Made by a program: the position numbers and the translations under genes. This document shows positions 39,645 through 46,717 of a stretch of DNA of 64,000 nt, one piece after another. Under the pieces are notes generated by a model. The model worked only from the letters and a program-made list of their open reading frames with translations, made no database searches and had not been told where the DNA came from. Origin of the DNA: Acidobacteriota bacterium (GTDB lineage Bacteria > Acidobacteriota > Terriglobia > Acidiferrales > UBA7541); contig QHYZ01000064.1 in the NCBI GenBank assembly GCA_003225295.1, positions 1 through 64,000 of the forward strand. Direction: 5' to 3'. Within the stretch, counting starts at the first letter, position 1; each line of letters opens with the position of its first letter.

Positions 39645-39844
39645 CCACGCGGCTCGGCGCCGCACTTCCGAGAATCAGGCCCCCGTAAGGCAGAGCATTT
39701 GGGTTCGTGTTTCAGCTTCGTGCCCGTAGGCCCAAGGGATCCGCGCCCGGCGTCCCCGGATACTGGTCTCCTCAAGCATCTTGGCTCTCAGGTACAAAGT
39801 CCGCCCAATCTCCTGCCCGGCACGGGACCAGGGGAGAGCGGCTC

Positions 39845-40153
39845 ATGGAATACCACGACAAGGTGCTGAAGTGTTCGGAGTGCGGAGCTGAATTCATTTT
39901 TACCGCCGGCGAACAGATGTTTTTCGCCGACAAGGGCTTCAAGAACGAGCCGAAGCGCTGCAAGAACTGCAAGGCCAAGCGGGCCGAAGGCGGAGGGGGC
40001 GGGGGAGGACACGCCTCGTCGATGCGCTCGGAAACCAAGACGAATTGCTCGCAGTGCGGAAAGGAAACCACCGTTCCCTTCCGTCCCACACAAGGGCGGC
40101 CGGTGTTTTGCCGAGAATGCTTCCAGCAGCGCCGGGCGATGGGCGCGGCGTAA
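39845..40153 (+). CDS. zinc-ribbon protein with four CxxC knuckles
   Basis: 102 residues. Two zinc-ribbon units are visible: LKCSECGAEF with RCKNCKAKR, then NCSQCGKETTVPF with VFCRECFQQRR, joined by a Gly-rich linker (GGGGGGG). The first matches the small probable zinc-binding domain often found in Acidobacteria and Cyanobacteria. The second carries the CxxC-TTVPFRP-xxCxxC pattern. It is probably an RNA- or protein-binding protein; no function is established. ATG at 39845 preceded by GGGGAG. Confidence 0.88.
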   Translation: MEYHDKVLKCSECGAEFIFTAGEQMFFADKGFKNEPKRCKNCKAKRAEGGGGGGGHASSMRSETKTNCSQCGKETTVPFRPTQGRPVFCRECFQQRRAMGAA

Positions 40154-40494: not shown

Positions 40495-41631
40495 ATGGCT
40501 CACCGCTTCACCATCGGCGTCGAAGAAGAATTCCAAATCATTGATCCCGCGACCTGCGAATTGCGTTCGCACGTCAGCCAGCTGGTCTCCGCGGCTTCCC
40601 CGGACATCGCCCAGCAGGTGAAGCACGAGCTGCACCAGTCCATCGTAGAGACCGGCACGCGCATCTGCGAGAACGTCAGCGAGCTGCGCATTGAAATGCA
40701 CCGCACCCGCGGCGAACTCGTCGCCGCTGCCGAACGCGCCGGACTTCAGGTGGCAGCGGCGGGCACGCACCCTTTTTCCAGCTGGATCGACCAGGTCATC
40801 TCTCCCGGCGAACGCTATCAGCATATTGTCGAGGAGATGGGCCAGCTGGCGCGCTCGCTGCTCATCTTCGGCATGCACGTGCACGTGGCCATGCCGGACA
40901 AACAGACGACCATCGATATGATGAACGGCGTAAGCTATTTCCTGCCGCACCTCCTCGCGCTTTCCACCAGTTCACCCTTTTGGATGGGCAGAAATACGGG
41001 GCTGAAGTCGTTCCGCACCACCGTGTTTCGCCGGTTCCCGAGGACTGGCGTACCGGAGCAGTTCGAATCCTGGAGCGCGTATGAAGATTTCGTAAACCTG
41101 TTGGTGAAGTTGAACTCCATCGACAACGGCAAGAAGATTTGGTGGGACGTTCGCCCGCACCCCACCTTCGGCACGCTGGAATTCCGCTTGTTCGACGTCT
41201 CCACGCGAGTCGAGGAGGCCGTGGCCATCGCGGCGCTGACCCAGGCCATCATCGTGAAGCTGCACCGCCTGTACCAGGCCAACATGAGCTGGCGGCTGTA
41301 CCGCCGCGCGCTCATCGAAGAGAACAAGTGGCGCGCGGCGCGATACGGCATTGATGGAAAACTCATCGACTTCGGCAAGGAAGCCGAAGTGCCCATGCGC
41401 CAGCTGGTTCCCGAATTGCTGGAATTTGTGGATGACGTCGTCGATGATCTGGGCAGCCGCAGCGCCGTCGAATACACGCACACCATCATGAACGAAGGCA
41501 CCAGCGCGGACCGGCAGTTGCGCGTATATCAGGAGACCGGCGATTTGCAAGCCGTGGTCCGGCATCTGGTTGCCGAAACGCGCGGCGGCGTCACCGAGCC
41601 GCGCACTTCCTCAGCACATGCGGTGAATTGA
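40495..41631 (+). CDS. carboxylate-amine ligase, GCS2 (YbdK) family
   Basis: 378 residues of the glutamate-cysteine ligase family 2 fold. Seen: FTIGVEEEFQIIDPATCELRS at the start, THPFSSWIDQ, FGMHVHVAMPD with metal-binding His, and RPHPTFGTLEFRLFDV. E. coli YbdK has weak glutamate-cysteine ligase activity, but stand-alone members in clusters are thought to ligate other amino acids or amines. The ATG at 40495 has CGGAGG eight bases upstream. It is the first gene of a run with two ATP-grasp-like genes, which suggests synthesis of an amide-linked metabolite. Confidence 0.92.
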   Translation: MAHRFTIGVEEEFQIIDPATCELRSHVSQLVSAASPDIAQQVKHELHQSIVETGTRICENVSELRIEMHRTRGELVAAAERAGLQVAAAGTHPFSSWIDQVISPGERYQHIVEEMGQLARSLLIFGMHVHVAMPDKQTTIDMMNGVSYFLPHLLALSTSSPFWMGRNTGLKSFRTTVFRRFPRTGVPEQFESWSAYEDFVNLLVKLNSIDNGKKIWWDVRPHPTFGTLEFRLFDVSTRVEEAVAIAALTQAIIVKLHRLYQANMSWRLYRRALIEENKWRAARYGIDGKLIDFGKEAEVPMRQLVPELLEFVDDVVDDLGSRSAVEYTHTIMNEGTSADRQLRVYQETGDLQAVVRHLVAETRGGVTEPRTSSAHAVN

Positions 41632-41672
41632 CGGCGATCGAAAGCGAAGCCGTTCCTGAAAGGAGCACGAAC

Positions 41673-42695
41673 ATGAAAACGGTTGGCCTTCTCTGCGGGC
41701 GGGAATACAGCTTTCCTCCCGCTTTTATCGAGCGCGTCAAGAAGCTCGGCGCCAGGGACGGCGTGACCGCCGAAATGGTGAAGCTGGGCGGCACGCGCAT
41801 GGGCGAGCCCGCACGATATAGCGTCATCGTCGACCGCATCTCGCATGAAGTCGAGTATTACCGCGGCTATTTGAAGCACGCCGTTCTTCAGGGAACCTAC
41901 GTCATCAACAATCCGTTCTGGTGGACCGCCGACGACAAATATTTCAACTACTCGGTGGCCTCCAAGCTGGGAATGGCCATCCCCAAGACCGTGCTCCTCC
42001 CGCAGAAGGGTTATCCGAGCAGCGTGGATATCACCGCCGAATCGCTCCACAACCTGGAATATCCCGTGGACTGGGACGGGCTGCTCGATTACGTCGGGCG
42101 GCCCGCCATCTTGAAGCCTTTTTCGGGTGGCGGCTGGAAGCACGTCTACAAAGTGAACAACAAAGAGGAACTCCTTGCCGCGTACGACCAGACTTCGCCG
42201 TACTGCATGACCCTTCAGGAATTCATTGATTTCAATCAGTACGTGCGATGCTTCACTTTCGGCAAAACGGACATCGTCCCCGTCCACTATGATCCCAAGG
42301 AACGCAAATACCTGGTCGACCATCAATACCTGACGCCGGAGCTCGGCGCGCGCGTGGTGAAAGATGCGCAGACGATCAACCAAGCGCTGGGCTACGAAAT
42401 GAATACCATCGAGTTCGCCGTCAAAGGCGGGGTGCCCTACGCCATCGACTTTCTGAATCCCGCGCCTGATTTCGAGCGCGCCCGCATCACGGAATTCTAT
42501 TTCGAGCATGTGGTGGAAAAAATGGCCCGGCTGGTGATCGACCGGGCCCTGAACGGCAAGGCTTCGAGTCCCTGGCCGCGTTGGGAAGAGATGCTCGGCA
42601 TCGGAGCAGCCGCGGGATTCATGGGAGCGCCAAAGAGCGCCTCCGCCGGGCAGAGGTCTGCGGCCGCTCCGGCGGGGTCCGTAAGGGGATCGTGA
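41673..42695 (+). CDS. ATP-grasp-like protein (RimK-type fold likely)
   Basis: 340 residues. The order of elements fits an ATP-grasp enzyme: a preATP-grasp-like N-terminus (VGLLCGREYSFPPAFIERVKKLG), NNPFWWTADDKYFNYSVASKLG, a lysine-containing nucleotide loop AILKPFSGGGWKHVYKV, a hinge MTLQEFIDFNQYVRCF, and an acidic and Asn-containing metal site in MNTIEFAVKGGVPYAIDFLNPAPD. The reaction is not known; such proteins usually form amide bonds from acyl phosphates. The ATG at 41673 is preceded by AAAGGAG, and the next gene begins 4 bp after its stop. Confidence 0.82.
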   Translation: MKTVGLLCGREYSFPPAFIERVKKLGARDGVTAEMVKLGGTRMGEPARYSVIVDRISHEVEYYRGYLKHAVLQGTYVINNPFWWTADDKYFNYSVASKLGMAIPKTVLLPQKGYPSSVDITAESLHNLEYPVDWDGLLDYVGRPAILKPFSGGGWKHVYKVNNKEELLAAYDQTSPYCMTLQEFIDFNQYVRCFTFGKTDIVPVHYDPKERKYLVDHQYLTPELGARVVKDAQTINQALGYEMNTIEFAVKGGVPYAIDFLNPAPDFERARITEFYFEHVVEKMARLVIDRALNGKASSPWPRWEEMLGIGAAAGFMGAPKSASAGQRSAAAPAGSVRGS

Positions 42696-42699
42696 TCGC

Positions 42700-44106
42700 G
42701 TGACCAGCGCTCCAACACCTCGGATCCTGCCTCGGTCTCCCGTTGAGGAGTGGCACGCCATTTTGAAAACTACGCTTGTGCGTTTGCCTGCGCTCCCGGA
42801 CGATTTGTTCAAGCGCATGCGCGGAGCCAAGCTTACCTTTGGCAATCGCGTTCATTGTCCTTTTCTGCGCCCGTTTTTTCTTTCCCCTGAAGACGAAGAG
42901 CGCGTGAGAACCGTGGCGGAGACCATCGCGGATCTCGGCGAGCGCATCACCAGCACAGCGCTCGAAGACAAGAATCTCTTTGCGCAGTTCCATCTGCGGG
43001 AGGAAGAGGAACGTCTTGCTCGGATTCCCACGGGATACGGGCGGGCCAGCACGGCCTCGCGCCTGGATGCGTTTTTGCTTCCCGACTCGCTCAAATTTGC
43101 GGAATATAACGGCGAATCGCCGGCGGGGGCAGGCTACGCGGAAGCGCTTGCGGAGATCTTCCGCGGGCTCCCGGTGATGGATAAGTTTCGGCAAGCGTAT
43201 GAAGTTCACTCTTACCCTCTCAGCGCCAAGCTTCTCGACGCTCTGGTGATGAGCTACCTGGACTGGGGAGGATCGTCCGCCAAGCCGCAGATTGCCATCG
43301 TGGACTGGGAAGACGTGCCGACCGTGAGCGAGTTCGAAATCCTCCAGCAACGCTTCGAGAAAATGGGCATCCCCACGCTCATTGCCGATCCGCGCCAACT
43401 GGAGTGGGACGGCAAATCGCTGGTAGCACAGGACAAGAAGATCGATCTCGTCTACCGCCGCGTGCTCATCAATGACATGGTGGCCAAGCCTCACGAGTGT
43501 TCCGCGCTGGTCAAGGCTTACGCGGCGAACGCCGTGTGTGTGGCGAATAGCTTTCGCTGCAAGATTCCGCATGTGAAGGCGTTTTTCGCCGTGCTGACCG
43601 ACGAGCAAAACGGCGCGCTCTTCTCCCACGGCGAGCGCGAGCTGATCCGCCGGCATATTCCCTGGACCCGCGTCGTCGCGGACGTCAAGACGGCACACTA
43701 CGGCCAGCCCATCGAATTGCTCGCCTTTATTCGTAAAGAGCGCGAAAACATGGTGCTTAAGCCCAGTGATGAATATGGCGGGGCCGGTGTGACCCTCGGC
43801 TGGGAAACCGACGAGGCCGCCTGGGACGCCGCGATCGAGCTTGCACTTGCCTCAAAGAACGGCGCATGGATCGCCCAGGAACGTATTCGCGTCCGCCGCG
43901 AAGTCTTCCCTTACATTGCGGACCGCGGCAAAGTCGATTACCGCGACATGCTGGTGGATTTCGCTCCGTACTTGTTCCGCGGAAAACTTTGTGGCTTTCT
44001 CACTCGCCTCAGCGCCACCGGCCTCGCCAACGTAACCAGCGGTGGCGGGCAGGTTCCGGCGTTCCGCGTGTCTGCGAATGGCCAGCGGGCCACCCAGGGA
44101 TATTGA
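42700..44106 (+). CDS. circularly permuted ATP-grasp-like protein
   Basis: 468 residues. Seen: FAEYNGESPAGAGYAEALAEIF, QIAIVDWEDVPTVSEFEIL, RRVLINDMV, a nucleotide loop MVLKPSDEYGGAGVTLG, and MLVDFAPYLFRGKLCGFLTRLSATGLANVTSGGG. This order, with the lysine-containing ATP loop in the C-terminal half, fits the circularly permuted / glutathionylspermidine-synthase-like ATP-grasp group. The substrate is unknown. It starts at GTG 42700, 4 bp after the preceding ATP-grasp gene, so the two are tightly coupled. Confidence 0.82.
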   Translation: MTSAPTPRILPRSPVEEWHAILKTTLVRLPALPDDLFKRMRGAKLTFGNRVHCPFLRPFFLSPEDEERVRTVAETIADLGERITSTALEDKNLFAQFHLREEEERLARIPTGYGRASTASRLDAFLLPDSLKFAEYNGESPAGAGYAEALAEIFRGLPVMDKFRQAYEVHSYPLSAKLLDALVMSYLDWGGSSAKPQIAIVDWEDVPTVSEFEILQQRFEKMGIPTLIADPRQLEWDGKSLVAQDKKIDLVYRRVLINDMVAKPHECSALVKAYAANAVCVANSFRCKIPHVKAFFAVLTDEQNGALFSHGERELIRRHIPWTRVVADVKTAHYGQPIELLAFIRKERENMVLKPSDEYGGAGVTLGWETDEAAWDAAIELALASKNGAWIAQERIRVRREVFPYIADRGKVDYRDMLVDFAPYLFRGKLCGFLTRLSATGLANVTSGGGQVPAFRVSANGQRATQGY

Positions 44107-44229
44107 TGAGCTGGCCTTGCCTGGCCGCATCTTCCGTCCATGTACCGGCCGAACGGCCAGGGTGAAAGATAAAGACCCACGGGAAGGCTGGCGCTAGAAA
44201 ATCCGCGCCATTCAAGTAGAATTAACTAG

Positions 44230-45255
44230 ATGAGATTTGCTTCCCCACAAAAGGAATTGATGCCCGGCGCGCGCAACGCCGTGGAAACATGCCTGGGCAT
44301 GCGCCCCGGTGAACACGTGGCCCTGATTGCCGATGAAGCCAGCCGGGCCGTGGCGGCCAGCATCGCCGCAGCTCTGGACGAGCGGCGCGCCCGCTATACC
44401 GGCTTGCTTCTGGAAGAGCTTGGACCGCGGCCGATGAAGGCTGCGCCCGCCGGTGTCCTCGACGAGCTGGAAACGGCGGATGTCGGTGTGCTGTGCATGA
44501 CGCCTCAGCCGGGTGAACTGGCTGCGCGTATGGCCATCGTGAGAGTGGTCGAGCGCCGCCAGATTCGTTACGCGCACATGGTCGGTGTCACGCCCGAGAT
44601 CATGCAGCAGGGCATGCGCGCGGATTACCGCCTGGTAGATCAACTGAGTGAGAAGTTGCGAGCGCGCATGCTTGGCGCTGAAACCCTCACGGTAAAAACC
44701 GAAGCAGGGACGAAGATTGCTGCGCATTTCGACCGCGGCCTCGACTGGGTGAAGACCAGCGGGCTCATCAGCCCACGCTACTGGTCGAACCTTCCAGCCG
44801 GCGAAGTTTTCACCACCCCCGCGACGGTGGACGGCACTTTTGTTTGCGACGCCACGGCCGGCGATCACTTCAACGGAAAATATGGCGACCTGCAGGCCAC
44901 CCCGTTGATGCTGGAGATCCAGGGCGCGCGGCTCATCGGCGTGACCTGTGCCCGCAAGGATTTGGAGCAGGAATTCTGGGATTACTGCCACACCGACGAA
45001 AACAGCGACCGGGTCGGCGAGCTTGCGTTCGGCACCAACCTGGGCTTATCCGCGATGATCGGTATTCTGCTGCAGGATGAGAAATTCCCGGGTGTGCATA
45101 TCGCCTTCGGCGATCCCTACGGCAGCCAGACTCACGCCAACTGGAAATCTATGACCCATGTCGACGTGCTTACCCGCAACTGCGACGTGTGGATTGACGA
45201 CGACCAAGTCATCGAAAAAGGCCACTACCAACTCGAACATTTGGGCCTGCGCTAA
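44230..45255 (+). CDS. M29-like (thermophilic) aminopeptidase
   Basis: 341 residues. The C-terminal half has the metal-site pattern of M29 metalloaminopeptidases: DRVGELAFGTNLGL, LQDEKFPGVHIAFGDPYGSQTHANW and HVDVLTRNCDVWIDD. The N-terminal half is an alpha/beta domain (MRPGEHVALIADEASRAV). Related proteins trim N-terminal residues from peptides. It is separated by about 120 bp from the ATP-grasp gene, same strand, and may process or recycle the product of the ligase cluster; that is inference. Weak ribosome binding site at ATG 44230. Confidence 0.85.
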   Translation: MRFASPQKELMPGARNAVETCLGMRPGEHVALIADEASRAVAASIAAALDERRARYTGLLLEELGPRPMKAAPAGVLDELETADVGVLCMTPQPGELAARMAIVRVVERRQIRYAHMVGVTPEIMQQGMRADYRLVDQLSEKLRARMLGAETLTVKTEAGTKIAAHFDRGLDWVKTSGLISPRYWSNLPAGEVFTTPATVDGTFVCDATAGDHFNGKYGDLQATPLMLEIQGARLIGVTCARKDLEQEFWDYCHTDENSDRVGELAFGTNLGLSAMIGILLQDEKFPGVHIAFGDPYGSQTHANWKSMTHVDVLTRNCDVWIDDDQVIEKGHYQLEHLGLR

Positions 45256-45293
45256 GATCCTCGCTTCAACCGCGAAACGATCACAAACAATTC

Positions 45294-46025
45294 TTAGAAG
45301 AGTTGCGAGACGTATTCTCTCATCTGGTGCTTCCAGTAGGGCCAGTCGTGGCCGCCCTGCGGGCCCCAGTTGTCCAGCGAATGACGGATGCCCTTGCTGG
45401 AGAGAACTTCTGAGAGACGGTAGGTAGGCCCACTGTTCTCCCAAGGACCCGTACCGGTGCCAAGGTGAATGTCACAACTGGCGATCTGCTCGTAGAACCA
45501 GGGGTCGCTGGCGTTCGAGAGGTAATCGACGGGATTGTTGAAATAAAAATTGTCGTCGTACATGCCGTCCATGAAGTTCCGCAGGTCGTAGACCCCGGAC
45601 ATGGCGAAGCAGCGTTTGATGACGTCGGGGTGCTTGAAGAGACTGTTGGCGGCGTGGTACGCGCCAAACGAAGCACCCATCGTGGAGATGGCCATGCCTG
45701 GCGACTGGCAATTATTCCAGATAAACGGAACCACCTCCTCGCGCAGATAGGAATCAAAAACCACTTGGACGTAGCTGCGGTGAAACGGGTGCGCGCTCTT
45801 GTTGTAAAAGCTCTGCCCATTGATCGAATTCACGGAAAAGAATTTGATTCTTCCGGCATCGATGAACTCCGCAAGCGCGCCGACCATGCTCTGGCCTTCG
45901 AGTTCCCACTCGTCACCGGCGCTGGTGGGGAAACCGAGGAGCGGCGGGCCCCAATGCCCGTAGACGACCACGCCCAGCTCCATGCCGAGCCGGTGAGAGT
46001 ACCAGCGGTGATATTCACGTTTCAT
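45294..46025 (-). CDS. esterase-D-like alpha/beta hydrolase
   Basis: 243 residues of the PF00756 esterase type. The nucleophile elbow is TMGASFGAYHAAN, the acid is probably near the stretch ending WFYEQIASCDIHLGTG, and the His is in GPQGGHDWPYWKHQ. There is no signal peptide, so it is cytosolic. Relatives hydrolyse S-formylglutathione, siderophore esters or acyl esters. Start ATG 46025 with AAGGGG upstream. It is convergent with the aminopeptidase gene (38 bp apart), making a role with the ligase cluster possible but not shown. Confidence 0.87.
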   Translation of the reverse strand: MKREYHRWYSHRLGMELGVVVYGHWGPPLLGFPTSAGDEWELEGQSMVGALAEFIDAGRIKFFSVNSINGQSFYNKSAHPFHRSYVQVVFDSYLREEVVPFIWNNCQSPGMAISTMGASFGAYHAANSLFKHPDVIKRCFAMSGVYDLRNFMDGMYDDNFYFNNPVDYLSNASDPWFYEQIASCDIHLGTGTGPWENSGPTYRLSEVLSSKGIRHSLDNWGPQGGHDWPYWKHQMREYVSQLF

Positions 46026-46175: not shown

Positions 46176-46717
46176 ATGGCTACCGCTTATGCTCTCACCG
46201 AGGAGTCTGCCGTTTTTCTCAACCGCATTCGCCTGGGTATATGGGAAGTTTGGCGGATTTTCTTTCGAGCGAAGCGCACCAGAGAAATTTCAGCGACTTG
46301 ACGGAAACGGTGAGGAAAGGCGGAACCACAGTCGCGCAAGGGGACAATACCAAGCCCAACGACGAATTGTGGGCGACCTTCGAGAGGACCATGGCACCGT
46401 TGACAACGGTGTCGGCCGGGTTCATCGCGGACCTGGCGGGCGCCAAGGAAGGAAAAGCATGCCAAGTCCTGGACATCGCTGCCGGGCATTGGGTGTTCGG
46501 GAACACCATTGCGAAACAGAATCCCAACGCCGACGAAGACCGCATAACCCCGCCCGTGGCCGCGGCCTTCAGCCTCATCATGCTGGCAGGAACTGACTCG
46601 GGCGACGCCTACACCTTCTCGCAATATGAGAAGATGTTCAGGAATGCTGGGTTCGCGAGAACGACAGAGCATGCCGTTCCGGAGTCGCCGCAGCAATTGC
46701 TTCTCTCGGAGAAATAG
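46176..46717 (+). pseudogene. decayed O-methyltransferase-like gene
   Basis: The first part (46176-46230) encodes MATAYALTEESAVFLNRI in one frame with GGGAGGAG upstream. From about 46235 the family-like sequence continues in another frame with YMGSLADFLSSEAHQRNFSDL. The SAM-binding motif is present but altered (VLDIAAGHWVFGNTIAKQNPNA). It is then joined directly to EDRITPPVAAAFSLIML, the C-terminal part of the catalytic domain. Relative to a full acetylserotonin-O-methyltransferase-like enzyme of about 330 residues, most of the N-terminal dimerisation domain and about 70-80 residues of the catalytic core are missing. It is very unlikely to be active. Confidence 0.75.

Follow-up and report, generated by a model that had tools for sequence, protein, structure and literature searches.

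A cluster of five genes is described here at positions 40495-46025 of a 64,000-nucleotide stretch of DNA (the window), which belongs to contig QHYZ01000064.1 of an Acidobacteriota bacterium of a subdivision-2-like lineage (assembly GCA_003225295.1). These genes encode three ligases, each from a different family and two belonging to the ATP-grasp superfamily, together with two hydrolase-type proteins, and are linked to one another by neighbourhood and by co-occurrence, as judged from sequence comparison and predicted structures. Taken together, they appear, with a confidence somewhat better than even, to form a conserved module of shifting gene order that makes, and then processes, a small non-ribosomal peptide of the glutamate type or a peptide-amine, whose identity, substrates and order of steps we infer. 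An earlier note on this DNA had pointed to five open reading frames, i.e., three ligases in a row beside an M29-like protein and an esterase, and all of them were found where it placed them, with intergenic gaps, from GCS2 through EST, of 41, 4, 123 and 38 bp:

GCS2, 40495-41631, + strand, 378 residues: predicted GCS2/YbdK-type carboxylate-amine ligase (PRK13515 family)
GRASP1, 41673-42695, + strand, 340 residues: predicted ATP-grasp ligase of the RimK/ArgX fold, the anchor of the neighbourhood comparisons
CPG-A, 42700-44106, + strand, 468 residues, GTG start: predicted circularly permuted ATP-grasp of the glutathione synthetase/YgiC/glutathionylspermidine synthetase fold
M29-like, 44230-45255, + strand, 341 residues: metalloprotein, putative aminopeptidase
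EST, 45294-46025, - strand, 243 residues: alpha/beta-hydrolase, putative esterase, convergent

Recurrence of the module

The neighbourhood of GRASP1 was compared in a set of 83 loci (L021-L023 and L031-L110), which leans to close relatives since only the best 80 of 578 confirmed relatives entered it; some of the loci fetched come from genomes that were included before, and L064 and L132 share sequence. Considering matches above 100 bits within 6 kb of GRASP1, GCS2 was present in 52 loci, a circularly permuted ATP-grasp, i.e., CPG-A or the protein here called CPG-B, in 48, EST in 41 and the M29-like gene in 38. Of these loci, 41 extend at least 6 kb to either side of GRASP1; here the respective counts were 26, 28, 21 and 21, and seven loci had no partner. 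The order of the genes varies, namely (i) GCS2-GRASP1-CPG-A-M29-EST in the lineage of the window, (ii) EST-GRASP1-GCS2-M29-CPG-B in other Acidobacteriota, (iii) CPG-A-GCS2-M29-GRASP1 in the phylum of a Candidatus Obscuribacterales metagenome-assembled genome (MAG; L082), and (iv) EST-GRASP1-CPG-A-GCS2 in the phylum of a Chloroflexi MAG (L047). The survey covered the Acidobacteriota and the phyla of these two MAGs. In the phylum of L082, GRASP1 was matched at an E-value of 1e-30 or better in 14 of 244 genomes; seven of these 14, all within the nine strongest, were fetched, and their clusters hold GCS2 (7/7), the M29-like gene (5/7) and CPG-A (5/7). The phylum of L047 gave a match at 1e-60 or better in 46 of 201 genomes, and 20 loci from these 46, chosen by hand, carry CPG-A (19), GCS2 (14) and EST (10) beside GRASP1. 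The neighbourhood, the conservation of which the earlier note had proposed to examine, thus recurs in reshuffled order in at least three phyla.

Independently of position, an even sample of 109 acidobacterial genomes was surveyed for strong matches, the strength limits having been set after the gaps in the scores were seen. The weaker rows dropped in this way amounted, among genomes with any listed match, to 32 of 67 for GRASP1, 26 of 59 for EST, 2 of 32 for GCS2, 6 of 23 for CPG-A and 10 of 17 for the M29-like protein. A strong GRASP1 match was retained in 35 of the 109 genomes, spanning 20 families, each with at least one genome carrying both GRASP1 and EST. EST was found in 32 of these 35 genomes versus 1 of the 74 others (p 5e-23), GCS2 in 25 versus 5, CPG-A in 17 versus none, with weaker matches in six genomes of one family, and the M29-like protein in 7 versus none. 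Where they co-occur, the partners lie within 10 kb of GRASP1 in 16 of 32 genomes for EST, 15 of 25 for GCS2, 11 of 17 for CPG-A and 6 of 7 for M29. Some of the unlinked pairs may reflect contig breaks; others are far apart on a single contig or belong to two-contig assemblies (G111 and G143), and such scattered EST-GRASP1 pairs provide evidence of a functional link independent of adjacency. Protein distances of each partner also correlate with those of GRASP1 (r 0.81-0.95), none of 500 permutations reaching as high a value for any pair.

At finer scale, the closest GRASP1 relatives among the matches listed are 82-98% identical and come from MAGs titled Acidobacteria, several of them 'gp2', as well as from Candidatus Acidiferrum typicum. 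The distribution is patchy, since GRASP1 is present in 31 of 36 genomes of the genus of the window but in 3 of 25 further relatives, and no match was found in the plasmids searched.

Several accessory genes accompany GRASP1 in particular lineages. A GATase-like protein without any Pfam match occurs in seven loci, with Cys165 and an HHPE motif kept in the four sequences aligned, and a PGM1-type ATP-grasp (PF18105) adjoins its gene in L125, L127 and L137. In ten loci from MAGs titled Pyrinomonadaceae, Blastocatellia or Chloracidobacterium (L058, L059, L060, L062, L069, L074, L075, L077, L080 and L086), GRASP1 stands mostly away from its usual partners and near a PspA/IM30 gene, for which the PF04012 match was tested in L080, and a CPG-A gene is close by in L060, L077 and L086; PspA operons with a glutathionylspermidine-synthetase-like ligase are reported in passages of PMC11237479. 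A subtilase gene adjoins the module in three loci, two of them from Chloroflexi MAGs (L048 and L049) and one, L119, of the same phylum as the Obscuribacterales MAG; the Pfam S8 domain with CBM48 was tested in L049, and L048 has the same family of open reading frame.

Three ligases and two hydrolase-type proteins

The GCS2 protein of the window exceeds the cut-offs of both PF04107 (209.6 bits versus 21) and NCBIfam PRK13515 (527.9 bits versus 371), and its residues 3-347 are homologous to YbdK (1r8g, E 1.8e-54). From its sequence, it is a carboxylate-amine ligase of the PRK13515/YbdK type, with a predicted activity to match. The context differs from that of YbdK itself, as ybdK in Escherichia coli K-12 has no ATP-grasp, M29 or esterase neighbour in the 10-kb region viewed, whereas GCS2 of the window sits in a ligase module.

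GRASP1 has no Pfam match in a profile search, and with TIGR00768, the RimK family of alpha-L-glutamate ligases, it reaches just 32.7 bits, below the cut-off of 143.4. Its AlphaFold model, with a mean predicted local distance difference test (pLDDT) score of 80.7, nonetheless adopts the RimK/ArgX ATP-grasp fold over residues 2-294: it superposes on RimK (5zct) with a Z-score of 22.9 and a root-mean-square deviation of 2.6 over 260 residues, and on ArgX/LysX entries with Z-scores up to 22.1 (ArgX, 3vpb). The Foldseek matches of the model also include the graspetide macrocyclases MdnC, AMdnB and PsnB along with the LysW-linked ArgX/LysX. Among 19 aligned sequences, K148, E247, D259 and N262 are invariant, and by analogy we take them to be candidate ATP- and metal-binding residues. 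While the canonical metal motif of RimK-type ATP-grasps is E-x-N, that of GRASP1 is D-x-x-N.

CPG-A falls just under the gathering score of CP_ATPgrasp_2 (PF14403; 31.9 bits versus 32, E 9e-8). Its model (pLDDT 88.3) is that of a circularly permuted ATP-grasp with the fold of glutathione synthetase and glutathionylspermidine synthetase along the whole chain (residues 14-458), the Z-scores being 30.1 for YgiC (7uk8), 29.7 for a plant glutathione synthetase (5oes), 28.4 for E. coli glutathionylspermidine synthetase and 25.0 for the fungal Cp1B. The likeness, which concerns eukaryotic-type glutathione synthetase and extends to YjfC, lies in the predicted fold; CPG-A is 11-16% identical to glutathione synthetase, glutathionylspermidine synthetase, YgiC and Cp1B. 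R121, D123, E135, N137 and K354 are invariant among nine aligned sequences, and the spacing of the R-x-D and E-x-N motifs is presumably that of glutathionylspermidine synthetase. Passages of PMC12568646 term YgiC and YjfC peptidylpolyamine synthetases and give YgiC, YjfC and homoglutathione synthetase as the closest structures to Cp1B. In many acidobacterial clusters, CPG-A is replaced by CPG-B, for which a sequence search of the PDB gave no match; a profile comparison suggests that it may be a distant relative of CPG-A (66% probability, E 5.6e-5); the profiles of GRASP1 and CPG-A gave no alignment at the sequence level. The invariance of the candidate ATP and metal residues in both aligned ATP-grasp-like families, together with the two modelled folds, RimK/ArgX for GRASP1 and glutathione synthetase/YgiC for CPG-A, bears out what had been suspected of these two proteins from their sequence.

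The names aminopeptidase and esterase, given to the two remaining proteins in the earlier note, hold as far as the families are concerned, PF02073 and PF00756 both being matched, and stay labels at the level of family and fold. The M29-like protein scores 35.3 bits with PF02073 (cut-off 27), and the match covers only part of the profile (positions 203-376 of 406), a difference from M29 aminopeptidases. E192, E264, H290, Y297, H310 and D312 are invariant in 12 aligned sequences and presumably correspond to the metal-ligand set of M29 enzymes; the first three align with AmpS (1zjc). When its profile was compared with the PDB, a NicX-type dioxygenase (7cn3) was the top match, above AmpS. The M29 identity is preferred because the glutamates E192 and E264 have counterparts in AmpS but none in the aligned NicX segment, which led to the rejection of a NicX-like dioxygenase. 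As for EST, it scores 38.3 bits with the esterase family PF00756 (cut-off 22), and S119, within a GxSxG motif, and H226 are invariant among 12 aligned sequences.

Proposed pathway and competing explanations

In the pathway proposed here, GCS2 would gamma-glutamylate an amino acid or an amine, giving a gamma-glutamyl amide, GRASP1 would extend a carboxylate with a further amino acid, and CPG-A, or CPG-B in its stead, would couple the carboxylate still free to an amine such as glycine or a polyamine, a step modelled on glutathione synthetase and the YgiC/YjfC ligases, which join such groups. The M29-like protein and EST may then trim, mature, hydrolyse or recycle the product, the GATase-like protein possibly doing a related processing job in some lineages. 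The suggestion, made from the sequence of the window, that the cluster represents an uncharacterised route to a metabolite of peptide-like or amine-conjugated kind is supported by the recurring neighbourhood, the invariant ATP and metal residues and the matching predicted folds.

A number of observations weigh against this pathway. GRASP1 lacks any partner within 6 kb in 20 of the 83 loci, and the M29-like gene is absent from all 20 loci fetched from the phylum of the Chloroflexi MAG. Among the 35 acidobacterial genomes with GRASP1, a strong match is missing in 10 for GCS2, in 18 for CPG-A (CPG-B being outside that survey) and in 28 for the M29-like protein; given the gaps in GCS2 and CPG-A, the pathway as written is not universal. 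The p-values of co-occurrence are overstated since the sampled genomes are related, the correlation of protein distances is also expected from a shared species history, and contig breaks may account for some unlinked pairs. Lastly, oxidoreductase-like and transporter-like neighbours in some lineages lower the weight of a biosynthetic role and raise that of salvage.

Salvage of amines or gamma-glutamyl compounds would have GCS2 gamma-glutamylate amines, to be followed by oxidation and later hydrolysis, on the pattern of the Puu pathway, where gamma-glutamylated putrescine is oxidised and then hydrolysed. This improbable reading draws on the GATase-like protein with its conserved Cys165 and HHPE motif, on an aldehyde dehydrogenase near one cluster (L131), on a recurrent molybdopterin-type oxidoreductase-like neighbour in eight loci, mostly of close relatives of the window, and on transporter-like and ABC-ATPase-like families in four and five loci, respectively (these last three labels being given by eye); three ligases are, however, more than such a route needs, and the oxidoreductase-, transporter- and ABC-ATPase-like neighbours are each limited to few lineages.

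Tagging of proteins or peptides, where GRASP1 would attach a residue, such as glutamate, to a protein as RimK does, for the M29-like protein and EST to take off again, is no less improbable. The enzymes closest to GRASP1 in fold, namely RimK and ArgX/LysX, act on protein substrates, as is partly given in their PDB titles, but GCS2 and glutathione-synthetase-fold enzymes typically handle small molecules, and no conserved small protein was found in the clusters. The latter point comes from a scan of 103 loci (the 20 loci L138-L157 not included) for open reading frames of 20-110 residues that lay within 1.2 kb of the core genes and had at most 30% overlap with larger genes: none of the families among the 751 reading frames occurs in more than four loci, targets encoded elsewhere in the genome lying outside the scan.

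A glutathione-like low-molecular-weight thiol, standing in for the usual thiol of the cell, has only a slight likelihood. The association of GCS2 with a glutathione-synthetase-fold enzyme follows the enzyme logic of glutathione synthesis, and the genome of the window lacks a match to the TIGR01380 glutathione synthetase. BshC, the bacillithiol synthase, is nevertheless over its cut-off in 26 of 35 GRASP1 genomes versus 29 of 74 others, and in the genome of the window too; as BshC co-occurs with GRASP1, the module is not a replacement for bacillithiol, although its product may be a second thiol in the same cell. GshB (TIGR01380) exceeds its cut-off of 299 bits in 3 of the 109 genomes, all of which lack a strong GRASP1; of the GRASP1 genomes, one, G118, comes to 183 bits and so stays under the cut-off. 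The three genomes with glutathione synthetase (G137, G154 and G162, of family f55) have a GCS2 of the cluster type, which may hint at a gamma-glutamylcysteine ligase activity of this GCS2.

A ribosomal peptide cluster of the graspetide type, or a LysW-type carrier pathway, is very unlikely: the structural matches of GRASP1 to MdnC, AMdnB, PsnB and ArgX/LysX speak for it, but no conserved precursor or carrier gene was found in the 103 loci of the short-reading-frame scan, where GRASP1 also differs from LysX/ArgX in having no LysW-like partner beside it, and the candidate was rejected as far as the clusters themselves are concerned. A chance juxtaposition of unrelated genes, which the loci with a solitary GRASP1 might suggest, is scarcely credible and is rejected for GRASP1, EST, GCS2 and CPG-A on the strength of a linkage that recurs in different orders across several phyla and of genome-wide co-occurrence. 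An anti-phage defence system was likewise rejected, no PADLOC model family matching any of the five proteins of the cluster.

The peptide or peptide-amine module thus preferred is built of parts from known families, and ligase-based peptide pathways are not a new idea. ATP-grasp and glutamine-synthetase-like ligases were reportedly placed in predicted peptide pathways by Iyer et al. in 2009. That survey of amidoligase neighbourhoods (10.1039/b917682a), listed among the references of PMC4431377, reportedly shares the same general idea. No description of the present gene set was recognised in the literature searched, the survey of 2009 being outside that search. That four to six genes keep recurring as a set, in phyla represented chiefly by MAGs from soil, points to one missing small molecule. 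A more specific and rather doubtful proposal is that of a widespread, previously unrecognised cofactor-like metabolite, i.e., a gamma-glutamyl peptide capped by an amine, similar to glutathionylspermidine or another peptide-amine, which the GCS2, RimK-fold and glutathione-synthetase-fold ligases would make; it would exist alongside bacillithiol in many Acidobacteriota and occur in the phylum of the Chloroflexi MAG as well. With concrete enzymes at hand and named strains among the carriers, namely Edaphobacter lichenicola M8UP30 (L104), Bryocella elongata DSM 22489 (L109) and Acidobacterium sp. S8 (L101), the product can be sought directly.

Flanking genes in the window

Scans for promoters and terminators yielded no excess of sites over shuffled sequence. 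Upstream, at 39842-40153 (+ strand), a gene encodes a two-domain treble-clef zinc protein (zf_Tbcl) that recurs in close relatives of the window and, being seen only there, is not counted as part of the module. Downstream, at 46181-46714 (+ strand), lies a shortened remnant of a gene that has 342 residues at the same position in the relative L035, where it appears methyltransferase-like by eye; the remnant and its counterpart share two matching segments, 48% and 75% identical, and the stretch between them is missing from the window.

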